NCBI GenBank assembly: GCA_017458145.1
Contig: JAFTGA010000031.1
Location: 27,086 to 91,085, forward strand
Direction: 5' to 3'
Source: Bacteroidales bacterium
GTDB taxonomy: Bacteria; Bacteroidota; Bacteroidia; Bacteroidales; UBA932
DNA length: 64,000 nucleotides
The stretch's first letter is position 1. Each line of letters starts with the position of its first letter. Of the stretch, positions 1,523 to 52,500 are shown in pieces. The notes beneath the pieces were generated by a model that worked only from the letters and a program-made list of their open reading frames with translations, was not told the origin of the DNA and ran no database searches. The translations under genes and the position numbers were made by a program.

Positions 1523-3256
1523 ATGAAAAAGACCTTTCTCCTCCTGCTGCTGATTCTGTTCTCCGCCCTGACGCTCGGCGCCTTCGAGCGCGAAGCCGTC
1601 TGGCCCAAGGGCAGGATGCCCCATGCGCAGGCCGGCCAGATCGCCGCGATGCGCAATGAGATCCAGGCTCCTGGCTTCAAGGCCGACGATCACCGGACGC
1701 CCTACCTCGAATGGTATGAAACCCCCGATGCCGCCGTGCGCAACGGTGCCTGCATGATCCTGATCTCGGGCGGCGCCTACAACGGCACCGTGGACGTGGG
1801 GTTGATCGACAAATGGCACAAAGAGCTGACGGCCGCCGGGGTGCAGTGCGTCAACCTCGTGTACCGCACGCCGCGTCCGGAGGGCCTGCCGTATTACCAG
1901 ACAGCCTGGGAAGACGCGCAGCGCGCCGTCCGGCTCGTGCGCAGCGAGGCCGGGAAGCGCGGCTTCGATCCAGAGCGCATCGGAGCGGTCGGGATGTCCG
2001 CCGGATCCCACCTTGCGCTGTTGCTCGCCACCAGTTCGCTGACAGCCGCCTATGAGCCGGTCGACCGGCTGGACGACACTCCCTGCCACATTAATTTCGC
2101 GATTGTCAACGCCCCTGCCTACGTGACTTCCGACGCCGATGCCGAGGGGATTCCCGCCCCGCGCGAAGGCTACGGTGCGGACGTGCGGCTGAGCAGCTTG
2201 TTCCGCTTCGACGCGAAGACCTGCCCGATGAGCCTGCACCACGGCGGGGCCGATCCCTATTCGCCCAACGGCTCCACGCTCGTTTACCGCCAGTTGCGCA
2301 GGATGGGCATTCCGGCCGAACTGCACCTCTATCCCGGGAAGGGGCATGGCGCCTACGGCTTCGGGCGCGGCATCGAGTTCCTGCGCCAGATGGGATTCCT
2401 CGGTCCCGTGCTGCCCGAGGTGGCCCTGACGGACCGGTTCAGCTCCGATGCCGACCGCGCGGAACTGATCCGGGAAGCGGTCTGGCCGGAAGGCAAGATG
2501 CCTGATGCCCAGGTGCAGCAGTGCATGCCCTACATCGAATGGCATATTCCGGCAGTCCGCAAGACCCGCGCCATCCAGATCATCTTTTCCGGCGGCGCCT
2601 ACAACGGCAATGATCCTGACGGATTCGAAGTGGCCCCGGCCCGGCGCTACCTCAACGCAATGGGCGTGACCGTCGTGACCATGAAATACCGCACCCCGCG
2701 TCCGGAGGGGCTTGCCAAGCATACCACCGCCTGGCAGGATCTCCAGCGCGCCATCCGCATCGTGCGCAGCGAAGCCGCCGCGCGCGGACTCGACCCCGAC
2801 CGCATCGGCATCATGGGCTCCTCGGCGGGCGGGCACCTCACCCTGATGGGGACGACCTCCGCACGGCACCGCGCCTACCTGCCGGTCGACGAGATCGACC
2901 GGCTCTCCTGCAAGGTCCAATGGGGGATCGGCATCTACCCGGCCTATGCCCTGACGGACGGGCTGGAAAGAGGCAACAGCGCCGGCGGCAATGAGGACGA
3001 CGCCGTGCCCGCGCCGGAGTTCAGCTTCGATCTGGACACGGCGCCGATGCTCTTCATCCACGGCGACGCCGACACGTATGCTTCGATGAACTCCGTCAAA
3101 ATCTGGGAGAGAATGCGCGCGATGGGTATCCAGAGCGAACTCCACACCCTGGCCCTGCGCCCGCACTGCTTCCAGCGCACGGCGTCGCCCGGCACAGGCA
3201 GCTACACCTGGCTGGACCGCATCGGCGAGTATCTGGAGCCTTTCCTGAAAGATTAA
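1523..3256 (+). CDS. Secreted tandem alpha/beta-hydrolase (two esterase domains)
   Basis: The protein has 577 residues. An N-terminal signal peptide (MKKTFLLLLLILFSALTLGA) points to export. Two homologous alpha/beta-hydrolase units follow. Unit 1 (about 40-300) has SGGAYNG (oxyanion region), GMSAGSH (nucleophile serine), HHGGADPY (acid region) and GKGHGAY (histidine). Unit 2 (about 310-575) has SGGAYNG, GSSAGGH, IHGDADTY and RPHCF. This is the BD-FAE/acetyl-xylan-esterase-like class, so carbohydrate ester hydrolysis in the periplasm or outside is likely; the substrate is not known. A TAAATTTG -7 element lies at 1492-1499. Its end overlaps the end of the convergent preA-like gene by 4 bases. 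Confidence 0.8.
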   Translation: MKKTFLLLLLILFSALTLGAFEREAVWPKGRMPHAQAGQIAAMRNEIQAPGFKADDHRTPYLEWYETPDAAVRNGACMILISGGAYNGTVDVGLIDKWHKELTAAGVQCVNLVYRTPRPEGLPYYQTAWEDAQRAVRLVRSEAGKRGFDPERIGAVGMSAGSHLALLLATSSLTAAYEPVDRLDDTPCHINFAIVNAPAYVTSDADAEGIPAPREGYGADVRLSSLFRFDAKTCPMSLHHGGADPYSPNGSTLVYRQLRRMGIPAELHLYPGKGHGAYGFGRGIEFLRQMGFLGPVLPEVALTDRFSSDADRAELIREAVWPEGKMPDAQVQQCMPYIEWHIPAVRKTRAIQIIFSGGAYNGNDPDGFEVAPARRYLNAMGVTVVTMKYRTPRPEGLAKHTTAWQDLQRAIRIVRSEAAARGLDPDRIGIMGSSAGGHLTLMGTTSARHRAYLPVDEIDRLSCKVQWGIGIYPAYALTDGLERGNSAGGNEDDAVPAPEFSFDLDTAPMLFIHGDADTYASMNSVKIWERMRAMGIQSELHTLALRPHCFQRTASPGTGSYTWLDRIGEYLEPFLKD

Positions 3257-4686
3257 TTCCGCTTGGGGATGCGCCGGGCCTCCCCCATCGCTCCGGTCGG
3301 ACAGACCAGGCGGCAGAGATGGCAGCCCACGCAGCGGGTGCCGATGATGTGCGGCACACGGTCATCTCCGAAAGAGATGGCCTGGTGGCCGCCGTCGCGG
3401 CAGGAGACATAGCAGCGGCCGCAGCCGATACAGCGTGCACGGTCTATGGTGGGGAACACCATCGTGTCGCGGTCCAGGTCGGCCGGACGGACAATATTGT
3501 CCAGGTCCTCCCCGACCAGTTCCACGACGGATGCGAGGCCACGTTCCGTCAGATAGGCCTGCAGGCCGCTGACCAGATCATCCACGATTCGGTAGCCGTA
3601 TTCCATCACGGCCGTACATACCTGCACGTTGCGGCAACCGAGCCGGATAAAGTCCAGCCCGTCCCGCCAGGTCTCGATGCCGCCGATGCCGCTCAACTGC
3701 AAGTTCTTCATCACCGGGTTCTTGGCCATCTCAGCGATGAAACGCAGGGCAATGGGCTTGACGGCCCGGCCGGAAAAACCGGAAATGGCCCGCTTGCCGG
3801 ACACGACCCCGCCCGGCGTAAGGGACTTGACCGTATTGATGGCCGAGATGCCGTCCGCACCCGCAAAATACGCGGCCATCGCCACCTGGGTCATGCTGGC
3901 CAGGTTCGGCGTCATCTTGGGGATCACGGGGATCTTGACGTTCTGTTTCACGAACGCCGTGAGGAAGGTCACGAGTTCCGGGCTTTGCCCCACATCGCTG
4001 CCCATCCCGGCCAAACGCATCTGCGGACAGGAGAAGTTCAGCTCGACAGCATCCACGCCCGCCGCTTCCGCCCGCCGGGCCAGGGTGATCCAGTCCTCCT
4101 CGCTCTGACCCATAATCGAAGCCACAACCACCTTCGTGGGATAGTTCTCTTTCAGGCGGTGCAGGATATCGAAATCCGTCTCCGGCGGGTTCTCAGACAG
4201 CTGTTCCATATTGCGAAAGCCGGAGAATGCCCCTCCGGTGCGCTTCAAGGCATCAAAACGGGGAGAGACCTCCCGGATCTCCTGCAGGCAGATGGTCTTG
4301 TAGAACACCCCGGCCCAGCCGGACTCGAAAGCCGCCGAGACCATTTCATAATTGGTACAGACCGCCGATGAGGCCAGGAAGAAAGGATGTTCGCACGGGA
4401 TGCCGCAGAAGTCGATGGCGAGCGAAGGCGACGACGCCGGAGAAGGCACAGGAAGCACCGCGGCGATCTCGCGCAGACGGATCGGGCGGTCATAATGGAG
4501 GCAGGCCTGCTCGGCGCGCTCCAGATCTTCCGGTGTGCAACCGGCAAACCAGCGTCCGGCGATCGCAAGGTTGTCAAAACGAATGGCCCGGACGGCGCGG
4601 GCCGGATCCCCGTGGGGGCAGGCGGCGCTGCAAGGTGCGTTCTCACACAGCAGGCAGCGTACGGCTTCTTCCTGGATATTCAACAT
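3253..4686 (-). CDS. Dihydropyrimidine dehydrogenase-like protein (PreA type) with an extra N-terminal Fe-S segment
   Basis: The protein has 477 residues. The central part (about 90-390) is the FMN-binding TIM barrel of dihydroorotate/dihydropyrimidine dehydrogenases, with ELNFSCPQM carrying the active-site cysteine. The C-terminus has two [4Fe-4S] motifs (CIGCGRCYVSC and CVGCHLCRLVCP). The N-terminus has four closely spaced cysteines (11, 14, 19, 23) like the Fe-S domain that starts PreT, GltD and mammalian DPD. The FAD and NADPH domains that normally lie between are absent, and no preT gene is adjacent. Reduction of uracil/thymine is the family role; the electron donor here is unknown. There is no catabolic operon around it. 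Confidence 0.8.
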   Translation of the reverse strand: MLNIQEEAVRCLLCENAPCSAACPHGDPARAVRAIRFDNLAIAGRWFAGCTPEDLERAEQACLHYDRPIRLREIAAVLPVPSPASSPSLAIDFCGIPCEHPFFLASSAVCTNYEMVSAAFESGWAGVFYKTICLQEIREVSPRFDALKRTGGAFSGFRNMEQLSENPPETDFDILHRLKENYPTKVVVASIMGQSEEDWITLARRAEAAGVDAVELNFSCPQMRLAGMGSDVGQSPELVTFLTAFVKQNVKIPVIPKMTPNLASMTQVAMAAYFAGADGISAINTVKSLTPGGVVSGKRAISGFSGRAVKPIALRFIAEMAKNPVMKNLQLSGIGGIETWRDGLDFIRLGCRNVQVCTAVMEYGYRIVDDLVSGLQAYLTERGLASVVELVGEDLDNIVRPADLDRDTMVFPTIDRARCIGCGRCYVSCRDGGHQAISFGDDRVPHIIGTRCVGCHLCRLVCPTGAMGEARRIPKRN

Positions 4687-4706: not shown

Positions 4707-6209
4707 TCAGTCGTCAGTTTCGCCCATCATGATGAGCAGGTGGTCTCCTTCGATCAGCTTCATGCTGCCGTGCGGAACCAGGAATTTGTCGTCCCGCTTC
4801 ACCATCACGACCCGGATGCCGTGCGGCAGGCTGAGGTCGCGCAGGGTGGCCCCGGCCGCAAGTTCTTCCCCGGACACGGTGTGGTCGCGCAGCAGGCCCA
4901 TCTCTTCGGGGATCTCCATCCCGTAGGTCTCCACCTCCGGATCCGATTCAAAGCTCAGGTTCAGCAGCTTGGCCACAGGCAGCAACGTCATGCCCTGGGC
5001 CAGCAGCGAAAGCAGCGAGATGCCGAAGACAATATTGAAGATATCCGCCGAACCCTCCAGGCCCGCCACGACCGGGCAGAGGGCGAAGAGGATGGGGCCG
5101 GAGCCTTTGAGTCCGACCCAGGAGACCAGCAGCCGCGCCTTGAAAGACAAGCCGCGGAAAGGAAGCAGGGTCAGGAAGACGCTGGCGGGACGGGCGATCA
5201 GAATCATGAATGCACCGATCATCAGCGCGGGCAGCAGCGTCGAGGCCATCTGAGAAGGACGCGCAAGCAAGCCCAGGACCAGGAACATCAGCAGCTGCAT
5301 CAGCCAGGTCATTCCGTCGAAAAATTTCAGTACATCCTTGCGACAGGGCAGATCCTTCATATTGCCGATCCGGATGGCCGTGACGTACAGCGCAAGCAGG
5401 CCGTTGCCACCCAGCAGCGAGGCGATGCCGTTGGAGAAGAAGGCGATGCTCATGATCAGGATCGCGTACAGGGCGCTGCCTGGCAGGTGGATGCGGGAGA
5501 GCAGCCATCTGGATCCGGCACCGACGAGCCATCCGACCCCGAAACCGATGGCCACCTGCACCACAAACAGCAGGAGCACCGTCAGGGCGGTCAGACTGGG
5601 ATGCGCGGTGACCACTTCCCCACCGCCGGAAAGCACCTTGACCAACAGGATGGTCAGCAGATAGGCCATCGGATCGTTGCTTCCGGATTCGAGCTCCAGC
5701 AGCGGACCCAGATTCTCACGGAGCTGCATCCGCTTGCCGTGGAGCACCGAGAAGACGGAGATGGAATCCGTCGAGGCCATCACGGCCGCGAGCAGGAGAC
5801 AGCCCAGCAGCGTAGCGCCCAGCGCTCCGATGAACGGCCGGGCCACCCACCAGATGAATCCGCCGGTAATGAGCACCATCAGGAAAACGCCCAGCGTGGA
5901 GAGCATAATGCCCTGCTTCATCACCGGACGCGTCTCCTTGAGCGAGGTCTGCAGGCCGCCCGAGAAGAGGATGATGGTCATTGCGAAATGGCCGATGGAC
6001 TCGGCCGATTCGTAATCCGTAAACTCCACCCCCAGGCCGTCCTTGCCCACCACCATACCCAGGATCAGGAACAGCAGCAGGGCGGGGGCGCCGAAACGGG
6101 CACCGACTTTCGTGACGATAATGGCCACGAAAACCAGCACGGAGGCCAGCAGGAGGAAATTCTCGGAATGGATCCCGCCGGAGAAGATGGACAGCGGCAG
6201 CAACATCAA
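4707..6209 (-). CDS. Potassium/proton antiporter (NhaP2/CvrA type) with RCK_C domain
   Basis: The protein has 500 residues and about 12 hydrophobic segments in its first 390 residues, forming a CPA1-type cation/proton antiporter. Residues such as ESGSNDPMAY match the ion-path motif of this family. The last 95 residues form a TrkA-C/RCK_C ligand-binding domain (HGIRVVMVKRDDKFLVPHG). The family expels K+ or Na+ in exchange for protons at the inner membrane. The start codon overlaps the stop of the STAS gene by 4 bases, so transport and partner-switching signalling are translationally coupled here. Confidence 0.88.
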   Translation of the reverse strand: MMLLPLSIFSGGIHSENFLLLASVLVFVAIIVTKVGARFGAPALLLFLILGMVVGKDGLGVEFTDYESAESIGHFAMTIILFSGGLQTSLKETRPVMKQGIMLSTLGVFLMVLITGGFIWWVARPFIGALGATLLGCLLLAAVMASTDSISVFSVLHGKRMQLRENLGPLLELESGSNDPMAYLLTILLVKVLSGGGEVVTAHPSLTALTVLLLFVVQVAIGFGVGWLVGAGSRWLLSRIHLPGSALYAILIMSIAFFSNGIASLLGGNGLLALYVTAIRIGNMKDLPCRKDVLKFFDGMTWLMQLLMFLVLGLLARPSQMASTLLPALMIGAFMILIARPASVFLTLLPFRGLSFKARLLVSWVGLKGSGPILFALCPVVAGLEGSADIFNIVFGISLLSLLAQGMTLLPVAKLLNLSFESDPEVETYGMEIPEEMGLLRDHTVSGEELAAGATLRDLSLPHGIRVVMVKRDDKFLVPHGSMKLIEGDHLLIMMGETDD

Positions 6210-6511
6210 GGCTCGATCTGGAAGAGGTTCAGGAAGCCAGTCATCATGAAGACATTGCGGATGTCGTTGCTGATGCCGCGCACGATGACCTTGCCGCCCT
6301 TGACGGCAGTCGCCTTGCGCAGCATCAGGAAAATCCGCAAACCGGAACTGGAGATGTAACTCATCTGGCGGCAGTCCAGCACGATGGTGCCGTCCGCCTT
6401 GTCCTGGAGCGGGGCGAGTGCCTCGCTGACCTCCTGGGAGGCCGGGGTGTCGAGACGGCCGATCAACTGGGCCACGGTCTCGGAACCTTCTGTAGTAATA
6501 ATTACTTCCAT
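6206..6511 (-). CDS. STAS-domain anti-anti-sigma factor
   Basis: A 101-residue single STAS domain. It contains LDCRQMSYISSSGLRIFLML, in which the serine after YIS is the residue phosphorylated in SpoIIAA/RsbV-type proteins. The known role is to bind an anti-sigma kinase when dephosphorylated. The upstream neighbour, 4 bases away, is a SpoIIE phosphatase fused to a kinase-like domain, the expected partner. No sigma factor is encoded next to it, so the final target is open. Confidence 0.9.
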   Translation of the reverse strand: MEVIITTEGSETVAQLIGRLDTPASQEVSEALAPLQDKADGTIVLDCRQMSYISSSGLRIFLMLRKATAVKGGKVIVRGISNDIRNVFMMTGFLNLFQIEP

Positions 6512-6515
6512 ATTC

Positions 6516-8579
6516 TTAAATAAATTTTGTCATTGTCAATACATTCTTGCCATTGATGCGGGCATAGTCCACCTTATCCATGATATGGCGCACCAGGAAG
6601 ATGCCCAATCCACCGATCGGGCGGTCTTCGGCCTGCAGGGTCACATCCGCTTCCGGACGTGCGGTCGGATCGAAGGGGCGTCCGCTGTCTGAGACGACGA
6701 ACTCCAGGGAGCCTTCCCGGAGGATGGCCTCGATGTCAACCAGCCCGTCAGCCCCATCCGGATAAGCGTACATGATCACATTGGTCACAGCCTCCTCCAG
6801 AGCCAGGTTCAGGTTCATCGCCAGGGCCTGGTCCAGGTTCTTCTCCACCGCGATGGTCTCGATGAAATCGGCCAGCTGCGGTATCTGCTGGATGTTGTTG
6901 TGCAACACCAGATGCCGGTCAGTAGAAGGGTTCTCGTTCATAAAATGGATAAATAACATGGTCAGGTCGTCGCTCTGGGGAGCATCGCCCACGAATTCAT
7001 GCACCGACTGCTTGATGGCCTGCATATGATCCGCCGCACTCTTGCGCCCGGACAGGGCGGCCTTCATCCGCTCTTCCCCGAAGAGTTCCTTGGCGGAATT
7101 CTCCGCTTCGGTGAGGCCGTCGGTGTACAGGAAGATGGCATCGTCGTAGGACAGGTCCGTCTCCTGTTCGGAGAACGTGAATCCCGCCATGACGCCCAAG
7201 GGCAGGTTCGACTCCACCGGCAGCATCCGCTTGGCGTCGGTCAGCATGACCGGGGCGTTGTGGCCGGCATTGCAATAACGCATATGGCCGGAAGCCATGT
7301 CCAGGACACCGCAGAAGAAGGTCACGAACATGCTGCTTTCGTTGATCTCCGCCATCGCGTCGTTCATGGAGGTGACGATGCGCGAAGGGCTGGTCTCATG
7401 GCCGGCCACCGTGCGGAAAAGGCTCCGGCTCACGGCCATCACCAGCGAAGCGGGCACCCCCTTGCCGCTCACGTCGCCGATACAGAAGAAAAGCTGCTCG
7501 TCCCGGATGAAGAAGTCGTAGAGATCTCCGCCCACCTCCTTGGCCGGGACGATAACCGCGTTCAGATCCAGGTCATGCCGTTCCGGAAAAGGCGGGAAGA
7601 TCTTGGGGATCATCGACATCTGGATCTCCCGGGCAATATGCAGCTCGTTCTCCATCTTCTCCTTGCCGGCCTGAGCTTCCTCGAGTTTCATCTGCTCCCT
7701 GGCGGAGCGCCAGATGATCAGGATCAGCAGCAGCAGGCCCAGGAGCTGGAGCAAGGTCACGATAAGTCCGACCCGCTTGATGCCGCCATAAATTTCGTCT
7801 TCGGGAATGACGACCGACATCTTCCAGCCCGTGCGGCCGATGAGGGTCTCATAGCGCAGGGTCCGGTCTACAGTCAGGGTCTCCGCCGGAGCCCCGAGCA
7901 GCATGCCGCCCCGGCTGACCAGGGTGCCGTAGGCATCCTGATAAGGCTGCACGGACTCGATAAGTTTGTCCAGCCAGGTGAGTTCGACATCCACGCCGAA
8001 CACACCGACTTTCCGCCCCTGGGTATCCTTGACAGGCACGGAGAAAGTGACCACCATGTCCTGAGTCACGTCCGCATCGAAATAGGGCTCGCTCCAGTAG
8101 CCGTCCTCGTTGTCCATCGCGAAACGGTACCAGTCCGTGTTGAAATAGTCATGCTCGGCAGAGCCGAGACGAATCGTCTCGAAGCCGTTGTCGCGGCGGG
8201 ACACCACCGGCTCGAACCAGCGGCCCTCCCAGCGGTAGTAATCCGGCTCCATCGCAATAAAGCCGTTGACCAGGACCTCGTTATTCTCCATCAGGCGCTG
8301 GATGAGCGGAGCGAATTGTTCCGGGGTATAAAGCTTCTCGGACAGGGCCCTGGACAGGCTGCGTGCATCATTCTCCACCGACAGCGTCGTGTTTTCGATC
8401 CGGAGCCGTGCCACCGTCATCTCGCTCTGCGCCCGCCGGTCCGCTTCATCCCGCAGGCCCTGCTTGGAGAAGTGATACTGGATCAGGGCCGTGGCTTCCA
8501 GCAGAAGCCCGGCCGTCAGGAGCATCGCCAGCCCCTGGCGGGCGTACAGGCGTTTGAATGTATCGGTAATTGCCATCAT
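6516..8579 (-). CDS. Membrane sensor SpoIIE-type phosphatase fused to an RsbW-like histidine-kinase-fold domain
   Basis: The protein has 687 residues. A transmembrane segment lies at about 15-35 and an extracytoplasmic Cache-like sensor at about 40-275 (GYWSEPYFDADVTQDMVVTF). A second membrane segment (LLQLLGLLLLILIIW) and a short coiled coil follow. The PP2C/SpoIIE phosphatase domain (about 330-540) shows KEVGGDLYDFF, GDVSGKGVPASLVMA and YTDGLTEAEN. The C-terminal HATPase domain (about 550-687) has the N-box LNLALEEAVTNVIMYAY and GGLGIFLVRH. Kinase and phosphatase for the neighbouring STAS protein thus sit in one polypeptide, set by an external ligand that cannot be identified from sequence. 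Confidence 0.9.
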   Translation of the reverse strand: MMAITDTFKRLYARQGLAMLLTAGLLLEATALIQYHFSKQGLRDEADRRAQSEMTVARLRIENTTLSVENDARSLSRALSEKLYTPEQFAPLIQRLMENNEVLVNGFIAMEPDYYRWEGRWFEPVVSRRDNGFETIRLGSAEHDYFNTDWYRFAMDNEDGYWSEPYFDADVTQDMVVTFSVPVKDTQGRKVGVFGVDVELTWLDKLIESVQPYQDAYGTLVSRGGMLLGAPAETLTVDRTLRYETLIGRTGWKMSVVIPEDEIYGGIKRVGLIVTLLQLLGLLLLILIIWRSAREQMKLEEAQAGKEKMENELHIAREIQMSMIPKIFPPFPERHDLDLNAVIVPAKEVGGDLYDFFIRDEQLFFCIGDVSGKGVPASLVMAVSRSLFRTVAGHETSPSRIVTSMNDAMAEINESSMFVTFFCGVLDMASGHMRYCNAGHNAPVMLTDAKRMLPVESNLPLGVMAGFTFSEQETDLSYDDAIFLYTDGLTEAENSAKELFGEERMKAALSGRKSAADHMQAIKQSVHEFVGDAPQSDDLTMLFIHFMNENPSTDRHLVLHNNIQQIPQLADFIETIAVEKNLDQALAMNLNLALEEAVTNVIMYAYPDGADGLVDIEAILREGSLEFVVSDSGRPFDPTARPEADVTLQAEDRPIGGLGIFLVRHIMDKVDYARINGKNVLTMTKFI

Positions 8580-8580
8580 G

Positions 8581-9420
8581 CTATGCCAGTATATTCTTCA
8601 GGGCTGCGCGGAATTCCGGCATCGGGCAGCGGGTGTCCCGCTCCACGATCAAGGTCTTCAGGCCCGCAAAAGGCATAATTTGCTCTTCAATATCCTTGAG
8701 CGGACGGTCGGTGCCGAAATAGACCGGCGCAAAGGCCTGCCAGAAACGGATGGCCAGGGATTTGGGCATATGGAAGGTCTCCTGGATAAACTCCGGGCTG
8801 CTGAGATAGCAGCACAGGTAAACCATGCCGATGTCGAAAAGCGGATTCCCGTAGCAGAAGTCGCCCAGGTCGATGAAGTAGCGCTGGTCCCCGACGAAAA
8901 TCGCATTGCTGTACTGCAGGTCGCCGTGCAGGGCCGTGTCCGTCTCGGGCACATCCGTAATGAAACGGCCGAGCCTGTCCTTTTCCCGCACAGTGAAAAA
9001 CGGATTCTCCTCCAGCAGGCGGAAATACAGTTCCTTAACGTTACGGAACTGCGTTGTGTCCACGTGGATGGCGTGCAGGTCCCGGCACATCCGGGCAAAC
9101 TGTGCCGCATACTCCCCCGCCTTCTCCGGATTGTCTCCGGTCGCCCGGGAGAACGACTTCTTGCCGGCGATACGGCGGAACCGGATGCCGTAGCGTCCGT
9201 CTTCCGTGACCACATAATCGCCCGGCTCGGGAGAAGGCACGCCCAGATCATAGACCTTCCGGGCCATCTCCAGTTCGTCCAGCGGCTGCTGGATCTTGCC
9301 CGGGAAGTAGAGTTTGAGCATCACCTGCGGATCGCTCTTGAGGTCGTAGCTTTCGCCGTTGGCGCCGCCACCGGACAGGACGTAGTCGTCCAGGGAGATC
9401 TTAACAGCTTCCATTTCCAA
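8581..9420 (-). CDS. Aminoglycoside phosphotransferase-fold protein
   Basis: The protein has 279 residues. It carries the APH/choline-kinase-type catalytic loop LHGDLQYSNAIF and the metal-binding FIDLGDF motif, with a shortened N-lobe (ESYDLKSDPQVMLKLYF). Proteins of this kind in Bacteroidetes and Fibrobacteres are usually small-molecule kinases of unknown substrate, and resistance should not be assumed. The gene sits in a minus-strand row with the SpoIIE gene (1 base away) and overlaps the upstream HD gene by 20 bases, which suggests joint expression. Confidence 0.75.
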   Translation of the reverse strand: MEMEAVKISLDDYVLSGGGANGESYDLKSDPQVMLKLYFPGKIQQPLDELEMARKVYDLGVPSPEPGDYVVTEDGRYGIRFRRIAGKKSFSRATGDNPEKAGEYAAQFARMCRDLHAIHVDTTQFRNVKELYFRLLEENPFFTVREKDRLGRFITDVPETDTALHGDLQYSNAIFVGDQRYFIDLGDFCYGNPLFDIGMVYLCCYLSSPEFIQETFHMPKSLAIRFWQAFAPVYFGTDRPLKDIEEQIMPFAGLKTLIVERDTRCPMPEFRAALKNILA

Positions 9421-43908: not shown

Positions 43909-45552
43909 CTACGCACCCTGCTCGTCGTCAGCATTCGGGTCCGGATCAGGATCGCCGCCCTGGCTGCCCTCGGAGCCGCCCTCGGTGGAGCCGGAGGTGG
44001 AGCTGGACGAAGTGGCTGCACCGGTGGCCCAGTCGTCGTCATCGCTGGCCGGGCTGTTGCCGATGATGCCGTCCTGCGGATCGTAGGAGCCGGGGACCGC
44101 AGCATACACCGCCTCGCCGATCTTGAAGCCGACGGACAGGGAGTACTCGCCCATCACGTCCACGTCGTAGTGGTGCTCCTCGATCTTGTTGATGCAGTTG
44201 GAGGCCTTGGCGTAGTCCACCAGCATCACCATATTCGCCTTCGGGGTGCAGAAGAGGATCGGGGATCCGTACATCGCCTTCATCGGCTGGAAGGTGAATC
44301 CGGTGAAGCGGATCCGGTTGCCGATGGTCTGGCCGGTATACTTGCCGTTGACGGCGAAATCCTGCGCCTGGTAATACTCCAGGAACTCCTCGGAGCAATA
44401 CACGAGCGGCTTATCCACGAAGAACTTGGCCACGGCACGCACGAAGCCGCCCACGTAGTCCAGCAGCTGCTGGCCGGTGAGTGCGAACGGGTTGGTCGCG
44501 CTCCTGTAGTGGTTGAACTTCTTCACATCGGCGGCGGCGTCATCCACGAGGATGGTCTCGATACCGTCCATGGAGTCCTTGGCGGCGGAACCGGCACCGC
44601 CCTCGGTCTGCTCAGAAGCCTCGACTTCCACATAGCGGCCCTTGCCGAGCATCACGCGGGTCACGTCGTCCTGCACCTTCGGCAGCACCAGCTGCTCGAC
44701 GATATAGCGGGACACGGGCATTTCCGCCTGGGTCTTGCCCTGCTCATAGAGGAACACCAGCCAGGACTTGATGATCTCGGCCGGCTTGAACGTCAGGTTG
44801 ATCTTGTGGCGGCGATACGGGATCACGATTGGCGTGAACTTCACGCTGCCCTTGGGCGTCCACTTAGAGGTGAACTGCTGGGACACCTCGGTGATCAGGC
44901 TGGCCGCAGCCTTATAGTCCGTATTGGACTGCTCGCGCGTGAACAGACCGGCATCCGGGATGCCGAGATAGATGTTCTTGTTGAACAGGTCCAGCCGCGT
45001 GCGCGGAGGAAGCACTTCGCCGAACTCCTTGTTCAGGTCGGACACATCGAGGGAGCCGCCTTCCAGACGGGAGAGGTCCATCGGATTCGGGGAGGCGAGA
45101 GCGGAAGCCACCAGGGCGTTGTGCGAAGCCGCCATGTTGATGGCGTACTGGCGCATGGCGGCACGGACACCGGGAGCGAGAGGCCCGGCGCCCTGGGCGG
45201 CCGGAGCAGGCTCCGGCTCCTCAGACAGGCGGGTGATGTCGGCGCGGAGCTGCTCGATGAGCGTATCCTTCTCGGACGTCATCTTCTCGGCCTCGGCCCG
45301 CACAGCCTCATCGAAGAGGTCGGAGGCCTCCTGGACGGAAGCTTCGGAAAAGTTCAGCGCCTTGAGTTTGGAGAGGAAGCTGTCGCCGTACGCGGCGGCA
45401 ATCTGGTGCTCCTCGTCTTCGGAGAGCTCCAGCGCGCCCTCCTCGGAGACGGAGAAATCCTCCTTCTTGACGAGGCGGGCCACCAGCTGGACCATCTTGT
45501 TGTTCGCAAGCTTGGAGCCAAGCTTGGAAGCAGGGGTAGTGGTTTTCTTCAT
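43909..45552 (-). CDS. Major capsid protein with N-terminal scaffold-like coiled coil
   Basis: A protein of 547 residues from ATG 45552. The first 120 residues are helical with heptads (KMTSEKDTLIEQLRADITRL), like the delta/scaffold domain of HK97-type capsids that the prohead protease removes. The main domain (about 130-500) is beta-rich with conserved-looking stretches such as NKNIYLGIPDAGLF. The C-terminal 35 residues are low-complexity Ser/Gly then acidic. The protease gene is immediately upstream. Confidence 0.8.
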   Translation of the reverse strand: MKKTTTPASKLGSKLANNKMVQLVARLVKKEDFSVSEEGALELSEDEEHQIAAAYGDSFLSKLKALNFSEASVQEASDLFDEAVRAEAEKMTSEKDTLIEQLRADITRLSEEPEPAPAAQGAGPLAPGVRAAMRQYAINMAASHNALVASALASPNPMDLSRLEGGSLDVSDLNKEFGEVLPPRTRLDLFNKNIYLGIPDAGLFTREQSNTDYKAAASLITEVSQQFTSKWTPKGSVKFTPIVIPYRRHKINLTFKPAEIIKSWLVFLYEQGKTQAEMPVSRYIVEQLVLPKVQDDVTRVMLGKGRYVEVEASEQTEGGAGSAAKDSMDGIETILVDDAAADVKKFNHYRSATNPFALTGQQLLDYVGGFVRAVAKFFVDKPLVYCSEEFLEYYQAQDFAVNGKYTGQTIGNRIRFTGFTFQPMKAMYGSPILFCTPKANMVMLVDYAKASNCINKIEEHHYDVDVMGEYSLSVGFKIGEAVYAAVPGSYDPQDGIIGNSPASDDDDWATGAATSSSSTSGSTEGGSEGSQGGDPDPDPNADDEQGA

Positions 45553-45577
45553 ATACGCAAGAAATTTGAAAGAATTG

Positions 45578-46438
45578 TCAGTTATACTCCGCGCGGACAA
45601 ACACGTTCTCCACGCATTCCTCCAGGGATGCCATCCCGTCAGCCAGACCGACGGAGATCGCCTTCTTGGGGGCGAAGGTTGCACCGGTCAGGACCCCGTC
45701 CTTCTCGGCCTGCAGGCGCGGACGCCCGGCGCGGACCGCAGCGTGGAAGATCTCCACCAGGTCCGACAGCTCCTTCTGCAGGCGCTCGGGCTTGCCGTCC
45801 AGCGCCTCCCGGTAGGCTGCATTCTTGTCGCCGGACTGCGGCGCGTAGACCGTGATCACCTTGAAGCCGGTCTGCTTGTCTTCCCGGTTGTCCAGGATCT
45901 GTGCAAAGGCGCCGATCGATCCGACGCCGGACAGCTCGCTGTTCATAAAGATGGCGTCGCACTGCGAGGCCACCCAGTACGCAGCGCTGTAGCAGGCATC
46001 CACGTGGGCGATGACGGGCTTTCCCGCCGCCTTGGCCCGCGCGATAGCGGCCACGAGAGGCGGGACGGAATTGGCGGCGCCACCGCCCGAATCGATGTCC
46101 AGGACAAAACCCAGCACGGACGGATCGTCCACCAGGGCAGACATCTTCGAGGCGATATCCTCGGTGCCATAGGTCTCGCAGGTTTCGTATTTGGTCATGG
46201 AGCCGCGCAGGGGGACCACAATCACGCGGGGCTCCTTGGATCCCGCGCCGCTTTTCTTGGCGTTGCCGCCCGAGAGCTGATATCCGGACACCTGGTATTC
46301 GTCGAGTTCAACCCGGGGCATCGGCTGCCTGAGCAGAAATGCGTTGACCACCGGCAGCAGCACGTCGGGGTCGTGGATGAGCCAGCCGCCGTGACGCAGG
46401 TCAAGGGCGAGCTGGAGATAGTTGGTGCGTTTGGCCAT
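45578..46438 (-). CDS. S49/SppA-type prohead protease
   Basis: A protein of 286 residues from ATG 46438. It has VLDIDSGGGAANSVPP (oxyanion glycines), ACYSAAYWVAS (nucleophile serine region), and GVGSIGAF, as in S49-family capsid proteases of lambdoid and Mu-like phages. It should process the capsid scaffold domain encoded 25 bases downstream. Confidence 0.88.
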   Translation of the reverse strand: MAKRTNYLQLALDLRHGGWLIHDPDVLLPVVNAFLLRQPMPRVELDEYQVSGYQLSGGNAKKSGAGSKEPRVIVVPLRGSMTKYETCETYGTEDIASKMSALVDDPSVLGFVLDIDSGGGAANSVPPLVAAIARAKAAGKPVIAHVDACYSAAYWVASQCDAIFMNSELSGVGSIGAFAQILDNREDKQTGFKVITVYAPQSGDKNAAYREALDGKPERLQKELSDLVEIFHAAVRAGRPRLQAEKDGVLTGATFAPKKAISVGLADGMASLEECVENVFVRAEYN

Positions 46439-46506: not shown

Positions 46507-46836
46507 TCAGAGCACGGTCTGCCAGGTGCAGGAGACTTTGAGCGTGTCCTGGACGTCCAGCTTCAGCCGGGCCGGACGCTCCGCCGTGCCGATCCGGGCC
46601 TGCAGGCCGTTGTCGTAAGTGACGATCAGGAAGAGGTCTCCTTCCAGGGCTGCGTCCCCGACACGACGGATGGTCCGGACGGCGGTGGCCTCCAGCTCAT
46701 AGGTGATCAGGCGTCCGTTGTCGGAGTCCTCGGTCCGGATCCTGAGCGTCCCGGATGCCGGGATCATCCCGAGATTGTAGAAACTGCCGTCGCTGAAGAC
46801 GCTGCGGTAGAGGATTTTGGTGATGATGTGTTTCAT
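46507..46836 (-). CDS. Phage protein, unknown
   Basis: The 109-residue protein is beta-rich (SFYNLGMIPASGTLRIRTED). It overlaps the upstream gene by 4 bases. It is the second gene of the late operon, before the prohead protease. Could be a tail terminator or head decoration protein; no motif seen. Confidence 0.55.
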   Translation of the reverse strand: MKHIITKILYRSVFSDGSFYNLGMIPASGTLRIRTEDSDNGRLITYELEATAVRTIRRVGDAALEGDLFLIVTYDNGLQARIGTAERPARLKLDVQDTLKVSCTWQTVL

Positions 46837-47363
46837 TTCTCGAAGAGCCCTGTATAGTTGATGGATTCGTTGATATAGTACGCCCGGCGCAGCAGGCGCT
46901 GCCGGATTTTCTCCTGGTTGCGCTGCTCGCGGCGGTAGACGCGCTTGCTCAGGGCGTCGAAAGTCTCGGCCACCAGGCCCCGCGTCAGGATGAAGGCATC
47001 GATGATATCCATCTTGCGCATCCCCAGCTGCTCGCCACGCCGGTAGTAGCCGGCGAACTCCAGGTCAAATTCCGCCCCGAGAACCATGTTGATCTTGGCT
47101 GTGGCGGATTTGTCGTAGTACAGCCAGCGATTCTCCTGATCGGAGTTGATCCGCCGGTGCAGCTGCGGCAGATCCAGCTGCACGACATGATCGCCGGACA
47201 CCTGGGCGCGCATCAGCGCCGGAGACGCCAGGGCGACCATCAACGCGCCGACCGGCCGTGTGATGGACACGCGACACAGTGCGCTCCCCTCCCCGGGCGG
47301 GAAGATCCAGCGGAGATAATCTGCGAGCATCTGGGACTCGACGGCAAGTTCAACTTCGTACAT
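46833..47363 (-). CDS. First gene of the late operon, unknown structural protein
   Basis: A protein of 176 residues from ATG 47363. The start MYEVELAVESQMLADYLRW and the basic C-terminus (RRAYYINESINYTGLFEK) are distinctive, but no family is recognised. A TACCTTTG -7 element lies about 37 bases upstream of the start, supporting this as the first cistron. Confidence 0.6.
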   Translation of the reverse strand: MYEVELAVESQMLADYLRWIFPPGEGSALCRVSITRPVGALMVALASPALMRAQVSGDHVVQLDLPQLHRRINSDQENRWLYYDKSATAKINMVLGAEFDLEFAGYYRRGEQLGMRKMDIIDAFILTRGLVAETFDALSKRVYRREQRNQEKIRQRLLRRAYYINESINYTGLFEK

Positions 47364-47917
47364 GGGCACTAGATACTGTGCGCCATCCCTCAAGACACAC
47401 AAAGGTAGCAAAAATCTGCGATTTCCGTATGTCCATACCTTTTTAGCGTGCTACTAACGACTACCATGCTACCGCGCTTATAATCAATGCGTTGAAAAAC
47501 TACCTCCGGTAGCGCGGTAGCATTTTCGGTAGTTTTTCGGGAAGCGGTAGTTTTTTGGTAGTTTTTTGTAGCTTTTTTCTACCGAAAAACTACCGCCTAA
47601 TTCGCTGATACATCGGCTGGTAGTTCGCGGTAGCATGGGTAGCGAGGGTTTTCGCTTCCGAAATAAGAAAAACTTATGTCAGGCACCAAAATCGCGCAAA
47701 TCGGCGCCCCTCTGCCCTTATTCGGCCTCCGAAAATCCACCGGATTTTCTTTGATTAGGGGGTCCGGGGGATTCCCGTCGGCTGGTCCGGGATCCGGATG
47801 GATAAAAGGAAAGCCCAAGCCGGGGCGCTATTCCGGCCTGACGTCCGGGCACCCCGGCGGGCATGAAAATGGCCAGCGATAACTCGCCGGCCATTTAAAT
47901 CAAGTTCACCGTTCTCG
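47364..47917. promoter_or_regulatory. Late-operon control region with 14 GGTAG/CTACC motifs
   Basis: No protein gene is convincing here. On the minus strand a perfect -7 element TACCTTTG (47400-47407) precedes the late operon, but no -33 TTTG is at the right distance. GGTAG occurs at 47404, 47508, 47516, 47528, 47546, 47557, 47619, 47629, 47638 and CTACC at 47461, 47469, 47500, 47579, 47590. CGGTAGTTTTTCGG (47527-47540) and its exact complement (47582-47595) can form a 14-bp stem. The motifs may bind an activator of late genes, or form a replication origin. Confidence 0.6.
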
Positions 47918-48355
47918 TTACTTCTCCTTGACAACCATATCTTTAGTGATAATAGCCGTCAGGTCAAAAAGAGGTAGCGTAAAGTTATTTAGGTTGGTGT
48001 TCTTGGTGTACGCATATAATGCGCCTCGCGCAGCTCCTATGACCAGCGTACCAAGGTGCCATAGAAAATCTTTAGGGATAACAATACTCCCGTCTTCCTT
48101 CTTTAAGCTGTTCCAGCTATCTTCCGACAACTCGAAAACCAACTCCGTAATCATCTTCATGACAATGTCTTCCCCGTCCTTATAGGTCGTCTGGAAAGCG
48201 GCCTTCAATGTCTTGGCTGGGTTTGATGCGGCGAAATTGATATTGTTTTCTATTTGAAGCGGATGATCAAAGGGCTCATCCTTCAAAATAGCAAACTGGG
48301 GCGTGTCGATCCCTAACAGCTTGTACTCAAGCTTGACATTATGAACCATAGGCAT
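47918..48355 (-). CDS. SecB-like chaperone of a toxin-antitoxin-chaperone (TAC) system
   Basis: A protein of 145 residues. It starts MPMVHNVKLEYKLLGI and ends in the SecB-like pattern of Bacteroidetes: IPKDFLWHLGTLVIGAARG, then LYAYTKNTNLNNFTLPLFD. In TAC systems such a chaperone folds and protects an unstable antitoxin. The start overlaps the antitoxin gene by 17 bases, so the two are translated together. It is not the general SecB of the cell, because it is phage-encoded and coupled to a TA pair. GC content is lower than in flanking phage genes, which suggests separate acquisition. Confidence 0.7.
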   Translation of the reverse strand: MPMVHNVKLEYKLLGIDTPQFAILKDEPFDHPLQIENNINFAASNPAKTLKAAFQTTYKDGEDIVMKMITELVFELSEDSWNSLKKEDGSIVIPKDFLWHLGTLVIGAARGALYAYTKNTNLNNFTLPLFDLTAIITKDMVVKEK

Positions 48356-48908
48356 AGTTATCAAAAGTGATGTTATTCTGTGGCGCGACGAGATAGTTCG
48401 CGAAACCGGAAAGAAGCCCTGTCTGCAGGTCGCCATTCCAGTCTTTCTCGATGGACTTCGAGTTTCCGCGATCAATCTTGATCATCAACGCGCGATACTC
48501 TTTTTCAGTATATTGATTCCTAGAGTGTTTAATAATGGACTTGAAGACCTTTGGATCAGCTATTAGGGCAAGCATTTTTCCTGTGGACTGAGAAGGCATT
48601 TCCCCTTTCTCGTAAAGACGGTACTGGTTAACACCTAACCCAAGGATCTCTGACATCTTAGTCGCAGAAAGACCGTATTTTTCCCGAATAGCAGTAATCT
48701 CGGCAGGAGAAGGGATACCGTATTTCTCCCGATACCGTTCATAAACCTGGGCGATATTTGCATCGTCCAACTCCGTAGTCGTAAAATCGAGGCCCGTTAT
48801 ATTACAACGGTAAAAACTTTCAATGTACGAAAAGGTCTCCTTTCTAAACTCCACTTTTTTCTCTTCGTGCATCAGGGTTGCCTCGCAATCAGCAAATGGG
48901 CTTCTCAT
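48339..48908 (-). CDS. MqsA-like HTH antitoxin with C-terminal extension
   Basis: The protein has 189 residues. The N-terminal 60 residues correspond to the metal-binding part of MqsA, but the CxxC pairs are lost (single cysteines in ADCEATL and YRCNITG). A helix-turn-helix follows (about 70-120: IREKYGLSATKMSEILGLG, then NQYRLYEKGEMPSQS). The 70 residues after that, ending in hydrophobic LLSGFANYLVAPQNNITF, go beyond the usual length of about 130 and match the idea of a chaperone-addiction tail. It would neutralise the toxin and repress the operon. Confidence 0.75.
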   Translation of the reverse strand: MRSPFADCEATLMHEEKKVEFRKETFSYIESFYRCNITGLDFTTTELDDANIAQVYERYREKYGIPSPAEITAIREKYGLSATKMSEILGLGVNQYRLYEKGEMPSQSTGKMLALIADPKVFKSIIKHSRNQYTEKEYRALMIKIDRGNSKSIEKDWNGDLQTGLLSGFANYLVAPQNNITFDNYAYGS

Positions 48909-48920
48909 AAAAAGAACTCT

Positions 48921-49271
48921 CTAATCTTTAAGCGGATAACTCATGGGAAACTCCGCAATGTGAAAAGAAATACATACGGTCGTACTACTGGTCTTACATA
49001 GAGCAATTTTAATGTAGACCTCTCGACCTTTAACATCTTTCCCGAATACCCACATCGGGCCGTAGAAAGCTAAAGCATCAACGAGAAGGGGTCCTTCGGA
49101 ATAATCTTCGGGCTTTATTTCCTTGAGAACCTCCTCGCGGTCTGAAGCGGTAATTTCTAGTTCCGCCAATGTTTTTGCATTTGTCTCCCTATCCAGAAAG
49201 ACAACATTGAAAACCCGCATCTTAGTGTGGAATTCGGAGAGGAAACGTTCTACTTCGTCGCGGGTATTCAT
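48921..49271 (-). CDS. MqsR-like toxin candidate of the TAC cassette
   Basis: A protein of 116 residues from ATG 49271 (the TTG at 49289 lies in the promoter and is rejected). It carries a pattern seen in small Bacteroidetes toxins next to MqsA-like antitoxins: MWVFGKDVKGREVYIKIAL, then VCISFHIAEFPMSYPLK. An RNase of the MqsR/RelE-like type is inferred; the active site cannot be proven by eye. The toxin gene is first, the antitoxin 12 bases later, then the chaperone. Confidence 0.62.
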   Translation of the reverse strand: MNTRDEVERFLSEFHTKMRVFNVVFLDRETNAKTLAELEITASDREEVLKEIKPEDYSEGPLLVDALAFYGPMWVFGKDVKGREVYIKIALCKTSSTTVCISFHIAEFPMSYPLKD

Positions 49272-49286
49272 TCGCTTAATTTTGCG

Positions 49287-49317
49287 CAAATATAATGCCC
49301 TGTTTGCAAAAATCCAA
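49287..49317 (-). promoter_or_regulatory. Promoter of the TAC cassette
   Basis: On the minus strand TTGG (49317-49314), 19 bases, TATATTTG (49294-49287). The toxin ATG lies 16 bases further, giving a very short leader. Confidence 0.65.
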
Positions 49318-49339
49318 CTTTTTCGTTGATTTTTATTTA

Positions 49340-49591
49340 TTATTCCTTCACATACAATGGAACGCCCTCCTGCAGCAGCTGCAGGAATACCGGCCGTGTG
49401 GACGTCCGGACGAAATCCGTATAGTAGTCGCCGGCGTCCGGCCCGATGCGTACCTGGTAGAGGACCGGTGTGCCGTAGCGCTGCAGGTCAGCAGGAACGG
49501 CGGGCCGCACGCCCTCCGGCAGCTCGCGATAGTGCCAGACTGGCCACGACCGGCCGTTCATCCAGATTCCTGCAGCCAACTTATTCGCCAT
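49340..49591 (-). CDS. Small phage protein, unknown
   Basis: A protein of 83 residues from ATG 49591. It starts MANKLAAGIWMNGRSWPVWH and contains YRELPEGVRPAVPADLQRYG. The overlap of 11 bases with the primase gene suggests translational coupling. No family recognised. Confidence 0.55.
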   Translation of the reverse strand: MANKLAAGIWMNGRSWPVWHYRELPEGVRPAVPADLQRYGTPVLYQVRIGPDAGDYYTDFVRTSTRPVFLQLLQEGVPLYVKE

Positions 49592-52500
49592 CGCCGAAGA
49601 GAGGCATGTCGGACGAAGCCTCCAGCGACACGCCACCCTCGTCTTCGTCCGAGTATCCGGTCATCACATCGAGACTGATGCCGTACGTCGCCTGGACAGC
49701 GTCATAGTCGAACACCATGGCCGTGGTCACCTTCGCCTTGGCGGCGCCGTCATCCTGAGGCGTCCAGCCCTGTTGGTTCTCCGCCATCTTAAACTTGACC
49801 TTCTCGCAGGTGCCCATGAACTCCGGAGAATGCTCCAGGTAATAGCGCAGCGTCTCTGAGGGGATCGTCTTGCCCCGCGTGTCGCGCCCTTCCTTCTGAT
49901 AGAGCGAGGATATCCGCTTGAAATTGATCAGCAGGTACCGGCGGTCCGGATTCGGGATGAACTCTCCCCCGCTGCGCCTCGACTCCTTCGTCCGGATCGG
50001 CTTCGAGCCGTCACGGATCTTGTAGTCGATATTGATCCAGATCCTGGAACTCGACACCAGCGTCTCCAGGATCTCCCAGAATCCGGACAGCTCGTTGCTC
50101 TGACGGGTCTTGTTGTTCTGATCGACACAAAGTGAGGCGCACAGATCCAGCATCTCCTGGTAGTTGAACGGGAAATCCAGCGCGCTCTCCAGCGTCCGAT
50201 AGGCGGCCAGGACCGTACACCAGTTCTTCAGCGTCCGGTCCTCGACGCCGAAGGTCCGCACGCGGCGGCTCATGTCGGACACCGTGTCATCCCATGCCAG
50301 GCGGAATCCGCCCACAAACTTCTTCCGGAGCTGCAGCATCTGTCCGGTCAGGTGCGTGAGCCCCCGCTTCTCGATGCGCTTCAGATCCTCGTAGGCCTGC
50401 TTCTCGGCATCGGAGAAGGTAGTCTTCGCAAAAGTCAGGAACACCAGGCGGTTGAACAGGGCGATATCAGCCGTCGGCATCTCCTGCCCGGACATCACGA
50501 CGCCACAGTCCACCGCGGTCGTTTCCCGCTTCTTATCATTATCCATATTCATCCTGGACCGGCCGGTGCCGTCCCAGAGGCCCTTCAGGAACTCACGTTT
50601 GTCCAGGTCGATGTCGTTCTTGTACTCATCGAGGTGAACGATGGCGTTGGATACCTCGGCCACGGCCTCCGCGAGCGCCGCCTTGGTGGTGTTGGAGATG
50701 TTCGGCGCGGCGTTGCCGGTGATGAAGAAGGCCGTCAGTGAATGCCCCAGCTCCGACTTGCCCGTGCCCTTCGGACCGAAAAGGTTCAGGATCGGGAAAG
50801 ACGTCGTGACACTCGTGACTACATCCTTGAAGAGCGTGGCCACCAAGAAGCACAGCGCCACCTTGGCATTGTCCCCGAACACCTGAATCAGGCGTGTCGA
50901 GAAGTCGCGCAAGGTGACGTCATTTGTCACGGAATAGGTGAATTTCCGGTCCAGCTGGTATCCGGACGTATTCGCAATCGTATCGGCCGCGCAGCCAGGA
51001 AGGTAGAAGCGGGATCCGCGCATCTCCACGATGCCGAATTTGTCCGCCTTCTCGAAGTGGCCGTCATCCAGGCCGCCGTTGCCCCAGGCGTAGAAGCCCC
51101 AGCGTTTCTGCCAGCCCAGCTGCCGGATTTCGTCAGCCGACGGCGTGTCGTCATAGAGATACTTCTTCAGCTGCGTCAGTTCCGCGGCCGAGACCTCCCA
51201 GATGTAGTTGCCGGCCGTCTCGATGCGGGTCTTGAAATCCGCGAAGGAGACCAACTCACTCTGGGCGAACTTGATCACGGACTCCTGGTGCTTGCTGTTG
51301 ACGATCCGGAAGATGCGCCGGGCATTCTTCTCGTCCCGGATATGCAGGATCGGCACCAGGATGAAGTTGCTCCAGCGTCGGTCGTTCGACGAAGAGGCCG
51401 CTCCGTAGTAGCAGTTGTCCTTGACATAGAACCCGTATTCCTTGATCATTTCCCGGGACTTCTCGTCCTTGGAGACCTCGCGGCGCTCGATGGCATTCTT
51501 GGCCTTGTAGTATTCGGTGTTCCAGACCTTCTGGTTCTTCCACTCCTTCACGAAAGCGGCCAGATACATCTCCACGGCATTCTCGTCGCGCACCATGGCC
51601 AGCAGGCGGCACACCTCCGTGATGGCGGCAGCCACCTCGGTCTGCGTGGCCTTCCCCTCCATGATGGACTTGGCCATCCAGGGCAGGAAATCCTCCGTAT
51701 TCCTGGACAGGGCGTCCGCCCAACCTTTCGGATGCTTGAGGAAATACTCGTCCGGATCCTTCGGGTCCGGCGGATTGGCGCCCTTCTGATACTCCCAGGT
51801 CATCACCCGGACACGCAGGCCTGCCTGCAGCAGCGCCTCGCCGTGTTCCTGCGTCGCCTTGATGCCGGAAGCATCCATGTCGCCGGCTATGATCACGCTC
51901 TTCGCCTTTTTCTTCAGGAACTCGACGTTCTCCTTCGTGAGGGCTGTCCCCATCGGCGCCACGGCGTAGCCGATACCGATCTGATGGAGGCGGATCACGT
52001 CCGGGTTGCCCTCGCAGATTACTACGGTCTCCCCCGTCGAGACCTGGCGCGCCGCCTGGAACCACCCGAAGAGCATATTCCGTTTTTGGAACAGGTCGTT
52101 CTCCTTGGTGTTGACGTACTTCATCCGCTTGGCCACATCTTCGTTGTCGCCGACGTAGCGGCCGGTGAAGCCGGCGATGTAGCCGGTCTTGCTCCAGACC
52201 GGGAACACGATCCGCTCCCGGAAAGCATCGTACAGCTCGCCGGTCTCATCGTTGATGCCAGCGAGGCCCGCCTCCAGGATCAAGTCCTTCTTCCACCCTT
52301 TGCCTAACAGGAAGCGGCACAGGCCGCCGCCCCGGGGAGCGAAGCCGATGCCGAACAACTGGACGGTCTCGTCGCTCCAGCCGCGCCCCTTGCAGTACTC
52401 GATGGCGGCCGGCGACCGGCGGAAGGATTCCTGGAAATACTCCTGCGCCGCCGCATTGACGGCCATCAGCCGGTCGCGGTGGTACTGGGCCTCCCGCTCC

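Follow-up and report, generated by a model that had tools for sequence, protein, structure and literature searches.

Several toxin-antitoxin-chaperone (TAC) modules are known in which a chaperone protects a tail-bearing antitoxin, among them a Vibrio cholerae module built on MqsRA (PMC5105189). In the MqsRAC system of E. coli C496_10, as described in PMC9519451, MqsR toxicity was rescued only when MqsA and MqsC were supplied together, and the system protects against phage T2, a protection that surplus MqsC is reported to abolish. The T4 capsid protein is described as displacing the CmdC chaperone (PMC11618068), and the major tail protein of lambda as activating the HigB toxin of a HigBAC module (PMC11980606). 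Bacillus fungorum has a Panacea-type MqsR system whose antitoxin neutralises the toxin through its N-terminal part, with Panacea proposed as the sensor (PMC10440598).

The cassette described here lies in a 64-kb stretch of Bacteroidales DNA (the window) and comprises a toxin candidate (T), an antitoxin (A) and a chaperone candidate (C). As in E. coli C496_10 MqsRAC (PMC9519451) and the MqsRA-SecB TAC of V. cholerae RC385 (PMC5105189), the set is one of MqsR-type toxin, MqsA-type antitoxin and chaperone. The MqsA of RC385 has a named C-terminal ChAD (PMC5105189). The chaperones of these two systems are called SecB-like in the papers, whereas C is a divergent PDC-M64C protein, a comparison made by description only. 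T and A come from a Panacea-type MqsR clade, unlike the corresponding proteins of the two systems as these are described. They are homologous to the toxin and to the N-terminal part of the antitoxin of MqsR:PanA (PMC8832971, PMC10440598; loci L004 and L005 are examples), and MqsR:PanA loci carry the same -7 promoter element and, in some cases, the operator element; unlike the MqsR:PanA antitoxin, A has no Panacea, and C comes next. The third genes of the PDC-M64 triads in PADLOC (L030, L035 and probably L050) are homologous to C, and these triads have a toxin-like gene first and an HTH protein second, as in the window, but their first two genes are not MqsR and MqsA. PDC-M64 is listed in PADLOC as a candidate defence system, and the name was found in no paper of the full-text literature searched. 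CmdTAC (PD-T4-9) and HigBAC share the TAC logic proposed for the window, with different toxins and antitoxins.

We consider the cassette to be a prophage-borne module with TAC-type action, at a probability of about 0.65. The first-pass annotation had arrived at the same reading, and it is still the best one. On sequence comparison, it looks as if a chaperone has taken the place of Panacea on a single MqsR-MqsA core. A search of full-text literature, in which most subscription papers and all preprints are missing, turned up no description of such an exchange.

Layout and regulatory elements of the cassette

The features, in the order of transcription, are as follows.

49315-49328, minus strand: operator candidate CAAC-N6-GTTG, CAACGAAAAAGTTG, at the same position as in relatives
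49287-49294, minus strand: -7 promoter element TATATTTG, with TAnnTTTG at the matching place in relatives
48921-49271, minus strand: T, MqsR-superfamily toxin candidate, 116 aa, by a family-level MqsR match
48339-48908, minus strand: A, MqsA-family antitoxin (TIGR03830), 189 aa, without Panacea and with a free tail of 20-37 residues
48342-48452, minus strand: putative chaperone-addiction tail within A, spanning at most residues 153-189 and at least residues 170-189
47918-48355, minus strand: C, SecB-like chaperone candidate of the PDC-M64C family (PADLOC PDC-M64C), 145 aa
47867-47896, minus strand: hairpin 3' of C, terminator candidate (13 pairs, -22.9 kcal/mol, z -4.1)

T, A and C are consecutive minus-strand ORFs. 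T and A are separated by 12 nt, and the start of C overlaps the stop of A by 17 nt. Spacing and regulatory elements, rather than a transcript, mark the three genes as an operon. All three have relatives elsewhere, and the GC content of the cassette is 0.42-0.46 over most of its length compared with about 0.60 in the flanks.

The element TATATTTG is one that we take to be a Bacteroidota promoter element of the -7 type. TAnnTTTG was present at the matching place before T in 15 of 19 upstream regions (mean 0.65 and maximum 3 in 200 composition shuffles), and CAAC-N6-GTTG in seven of the 19 (mean 0.01 and maximum 1 in 200 such shuffles), five relatives having it in the form AACTTTAAAGTT. These counts cover the window and 18 of the 24 T loci L004-L027, and the shuffles preserve base composition only. 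Within the 64 kb, CAAC-N6-GTTG occurs once, which equals the chance expectation (at least one copy in 46 of 100 shuffles). A sigma-70 scan gave no promoter for the cassette, and the list of the terminator scan does not contain the hairpin at 47867-47896. The -7 element, the operator candidate and the hairpin after C make the cassette an apparently self-regulated unit. The first-pass annotation had described three coupled genes with a promoter of their own and a C start overlapping the antitoxin gene, and each of these points held.

Toxin and antitoxin from the MqsR-Panacea lineage

T alone matched the Pfam model MqsR_toxin at E 0.1 and 13.5 bits, under the cut-off of 26.2. At the level of the family, 16 of 21 aligned members, T not among them, matched this model at E <=0.1 (best 2.8e-4), and the family profile scored 21.6 with E. 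coli MqsR compared with a maximum of 20.4 in 100 shuffles, at an hhalign probability of 10%. Y86 and K88 of T, invariant in the family alignment, fall on the Y-x-K of E. coli MqsR. Both the Y-x-K and the SF(K,H) stretches of T align with that protein, and the residues in them are presumably the catalytic ones of MqsR. Two of four plasmid relatives of T are named MqsR family toxin in PLSDB. MqsR was not found when the PDB sequences were searched with the T profile. On these comparisons T probably belongs to the MqsR superfamily of RNase toxins. The toxin family, which the first-pass annotation had called unusual, is thus identifiable. In the MqsR of Bacillus fungorum, which stands outside the T alignment, replacement of the predicted catalytic tyrosine Y97 is described as inactivating the toxin (PMC10440598).

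T was not listed when the own genome was searched with the Pfam MqsR model. The sole MqsR_toxin match there lies elsewhere (L001, contig C47, 9542-9811; E 6.5e-4, below the cut-off) and contains one internal stop. In the scan of viral contigs, T as a single protein gave no relative, the T alignment gave three, and A gave one distant relative.

A belongs to the MqsA family. It scored 63.3 bits with TIGR03830, above the cut-off of 61.8, and 28.5 bits with Pfam MqsA, just below the cut-off of 30, and E. coli MqsA structures were matched at E 4e-5; it had been called an MqsA-like HTH protein from the start, and rightly. The zinc-binding CxxC pairs are absent from A, as they are from the first 75 residues of 35 of 40 relatives, so their loss is not special to A and had been wrongly singled out as unusual.

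The antitoxin usually found beside T relatives is nearly twice as long as A, at about 335 residues, and has Panacea (SocA) at its end. We collected 61 loci with T or the T profile from the order, the class, the phylum, genome contigs, plasmids and phage or viral contigs; in some cases more than one row comes from a single gene, and the plasmid match H4 lies outside the fetched loci. An MqsA-type part and Panacea were joined in one ORF at 52 of the 61 (38 of 42, classed with a Panacea model that was built from eight of the same loci, and 14 of 19). The other nine were two contig ends, an orphan toxin, a broken locus, three fragments, a decayed gene and a divergent pair. A stops where Panacea would begin in these relatives, and C then follows. 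Pfam SocA_Panacea (PF13274) is absent in A and present in all six long antitoxins tested, and no Panacea remnant above noise was found in six frames of 46801-50600 (best E 7.8). None of the 61 loci has a C-family ORF; with flanks of about 1.5 kb around most of them, a C gene distant from A would have escaped notice. The combination of a short A with C on an MqsR-MqsA core was found in one copy.

In the trees, A groups with the Panacea antitoxins L004 and L005 (91/83) and T likewise with their toxins (84/73), both forks being under the tool's mark for firm support. The trees were built without L003, L028, L125, L011, L017, L130 and L137, without matches that are short or contain stops, and with the self copy L051 kept; alignment A2 is without L011, L017, L018 and L027.

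About 70 residues of A lie beyond the HTH, partly as linker common to the long antitoxins. Local alignments of A with 38 long antitoxins stop at residues 126-180, 10 of the 38 at residue 169 or later, and these late ends fall near the GY/GF pair that precedes Panacea in the long antitoxins. The HTH is therefore kept in A, probably with much of the linker, which leaves only the last 20-37 residues free; the tail occupies the position that the end of the linker and Panacea occupy in relatives. Residues 141-189 alone matched no long antitoxin below E 0.9. Residues 153-189 contain six aromatics. The GRAVY value is -0.72 for residues 119-189 and -0.38 for the last 37 residues. The first-pass annotation spoke of a hydrophobic extension of 70 residues; the length is right when counted from the end of the HTH, but the extension is not hydrophobic overall and much of it is linker.

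No motif common to this tail and the tails of other TAC antitoxins was seen by eye. A ends in YAYGS, and 13 of the 29 partner antitoxins with readable ends, three of these 29 being from PD-T4-9-type triads, end in AA. Such ends recall the LAA signal described for CmdA (PMC11618068).

The third gene and its kinship with SecB

C matched PADLOC PDC-M64C at E 5.4e-5, T and A had no PADLOC match, and C had no match in Pfam or NCBIfam. Relatives of C occur in 18 of 395 genomes of the class, the own genome included, and relatives found with the C profile in 77 of 395 genomes of the phylum, many of the 77 from one genus, and in 26 of 171 genera. At 16 of 18 other class loci C comes third, after a small toxin-like gene and then an HTH gene. 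The exceptions are L029, where no toxin-like ORF was seen, and L033, where the first gene is shortened and precedes a fusion of the HTH and C frames. The term toxin-like refers here to size and place, with PADLOC run for a few of the proteins. All three proteins of L030 matched PDC-M64 models (C at 1.4e-12), as did both tested proteins of L035, the first only at E 0.006, and the first gene of L041 had no PDC-M64 match. Other C loci had neither MqsR nor MqsA (55 loci, five of them window or own-genome copies). Relatives of C elsewhere stand behind unrelated HTH proteins or alone. Alignment A1 was made without L033 and L042, in which frames are fused or extended.

When viral contigs were scanned, C as a single protein gave no relative and the C alignment gave one. 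The viral contig L050 carries at 3074-4426 a PDC-M64-like triad that ends in a C homologue and whose HTH protein ends in HAA. In genus g389 of family f197, homologues of C of about 150 aa (L103-L115, L117-L120) are highly alike between species and have no HTH gene of the same orientation just upstream (L111, L112 and L120, with no C frame found, were not readable in this respect); they are possibly a stand-alone SecB-like chaperone of the genus. Triads occur in g389 as well, at L096 and L116.

The first-pass annotation called the third protein SecB-like, which is supported at the level of the family and not for C alone. The C-family profile aligns end to end with SecB and CmdC-type proteins, with a conserved arginine and LP-x-x-N in register. 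Its local hhalign score with SecB was 20.3, higher than all 100 column shuffles (maximum 19.3), and its global score was higher than 98 of 100 shuffles, the other two, at about 126, being taken for an artefact of the global mode. A reversed SecB control gave 16.3 locally and 3.5 globally. The local score was higher with 17 sequences (24.8) than with 45, and the hhalign probabilities were 12% and 6%, or 3-4% with the larger alignment. Among the 30 non-SecB ORFs that scored best with a SecB profile built without the C family, 17 belonged to the C family (AUC 0.97), and the cluster containing the C-family ORFs came first of 22 ORF clusters (0.92; next 0.72); in this ranking family members are non-independent and single scores are not significant.

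The SecB profile gave C itself -0.3 bits (181st of 1612), and C reached no SecB model. When the search was reversed and run with the profile of the C family, E. coli SecB (E 0.13) came below a decoy ORF (E 0.039), and a PDB search with the C profile did not find SecB. Kinship with SecB is therefore likely for the family as judged from these alignments, and unproven for C itself. The identification of C alone as a canonical SecB was rejected, there being no Pfam or NCBIfam match and no useful PDB match.

The SecB model PF02556 had no match in the own genome. Across the 18 genomes that carry C or a relative, the model matched seven places at E <=10, two of them over the cut-off and none at a C gene. 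Three of the places (L075, L076 and L082) read as TAC-like triads with a third gene that matches PD-T4-9_C. The viral contig L002 carries at 5483-6844 an MqsRAC candidate of a different type, with a first ORF of 133 aa without Pfam match, an MqsA-like protein of 193 aa with CxxC pairs, and a third gene of the CmdC type that matches PD-T4-9_C (E 2e-12).

Prophage cargo site, proposed action and alternatives

Genes for a head maturation protease, a tape measure protein, a primase, an integrase and an HNH endonuclease were recognised around the cassette by phage-family matches, which bears out its earlier placement in a prophage. A syntenic prophage is present in two genomes of the same genus (L071 and L072), with primase identities of 66% and 62%. 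The protease, the adjoining gene at 43909-45684, which has no PHROG match, and further genes were also matched in same-genus prophages. At the corresponding site L071 has the primase, a small ORF, about 530 bp without an ORF longer than 91 aa and then the homologue of the gene at 46833, and this spacer contains no piece of the cassette. L072 has other ORFs in the same place (6979-9204), one of them weakly integrase-like (20.5% identity, E 2e-4). The absence of the cassette in L071 and the other ORFs in L072 make its place a cargo site, and the ORFs of L072, the integrase-like one included, suggest that the site collects cargo. No near-identical phage record was found. A repeat region is common to the spacer of L071 and the window, as is, by eye, a 24-nt string. 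Past the cassette, at 47464-47640 of the window, and at 9683-9866 of L071, inverted and direct repeats of GGTAGTTTTT/CTACC are numerous; this stretch is perhaps a replication origin or an array for regulator binding.

Our proposal for the action of the cassette starts from the observed gene order, the family of A, the families of T and C at family level, the promoter and operator elements, the missing Panacea and the cargo site. At rest, the SecB-like C would bind the aromatic tail of newly made A, keeping A in solution and out of reach of proteases. T, an RNase of the MqsR type, would be blocked by the N-terminal part of A, and the HTH of A would repress the operon at CAAC-N6-GTTG. If C were diverted from A, the likeliest cause being a folding protein from another phage, A would be lost, and T would then cleave mRNA and stop growth, to the advantage of the resident prophage. 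As to descent, the cassette would come from a Bacteroidota MqsR:MqsA-Panacea pair in which a short tail and a chaperone of the PDC-M64C type replaced Panacea. Dependence of the tail on the chaperone, proteolysis, RNase activity, toxicity, trigger and benefit are the parts that we infer. The protection of tail-bearing antitoxins in known TAC modules, together with the division between neutralising and sensing in B. fungorum, makes it most likely that the cassette retains the neutralising and DNA-binding part of a Panacea antitoxin, with the tail and C in place of Panacea. Against TAC-type action stand the sub-threshold scores of T and C themselves, the low hhalign probabilities, the tree forks under the mark for firm support and the single copy of the architecture. 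In addition, the free tail may have about 20 residues compared with 30-41 in named ChAD regions, as given in PMC5105189, and A ends in YAYGS, unlike the antitoxins with a degron-like -AA end.

Protection of the host from other phages would be the benefit by analogy with E. coli MqsRAC and CmdTAC as described in PMC9519451 and PMC11618068. A working TAC might instead serve to maintain the prophage by addiction, an alternative that overlaps with TAC-type action and concerns the benefit only. Addiction is a classic role of toxin-antitoxin pairs and would suit a cassette in a prophage cargo site, but E. coli MqsRAC protects against T2 and CmdTAC against T4 (PMC9519451), and we regard addiction as a rather unlikely benefit.

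It is improbable, though worth weighing, that T and A are a plain two-gene MqsRA pair, in which A lost Panacea and needs no helper and C is a passenger with another client. The N-terminal ZBD and the ZBD-HTH of B. fungorum MqsR:PanA are described as neutralising without Panacea (PMC10440598), and the free tail of A may be short. At L159, the HTH protein paired with a divergent MqsR-like gene has 190 aa, and the 3-kb stretch contains no Panacea and no chaperone. However, the start of C overlaps A, a strong hairpin follows C, and many C relatives come third, after an HTH gene. Least probable is a decaying relic, a truncated Panacea antitoxin with a captured chaperone gene and lost function, since the single known copy, the shortened C relic in the same genus and several broken MqsR loci that would suit it are set against three intact frames, the kept Y86 and K88, the kept promoter and operator elements and the lack of a Panacea remnant in six frames. 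That C relic (L139, genome G690) is 49% identical to residues 74-140 of C, with neither toxin nor antitoxin in 3.2 kb around it.

If the cassette has TAC-type action, its novelty is a module with parts seemingly from two stocks; the TAC kind itself is known. We tentatively propose, at somewhat under even odds, that Panacea and a tail with a SecB-like chaperone are interchangeable sensor modules on one MqsR-MqsA core. A free tail of perhaps only about 20 residues slightly lowers our confidence in this and in TAC-type action. Were the proposal true, the swap took place in a prophage, Panacea mainly decides when the toxin is freed and not how it is blocked, and MqsR TACs have at least two origins, the one in this cassette being the Panacea lineage combined with a PDC-M64C chaperone. 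Cassettes that share toxin, neutralising part and DNA-binding part but have either Panacea or a tail and chaperone would make the Panacea-sensor idea, as put forward in PMC10440598, testable, and the cassette would be a natural experiment on the triggering of toxin-antitoxin switches. It would also tie the C family, a widespread and apparently uncharacterised group of chaperone-like proteins in Bacteroidota, to SecB and to TAC modules.

One further MqsR-Panacea pair was seen on a Fibrella plasmid (L024, 1727-5352) directly beside genes annotated as CBASS, a neighbourhood in keeping with a defence role of the MqsR-Panacea family.
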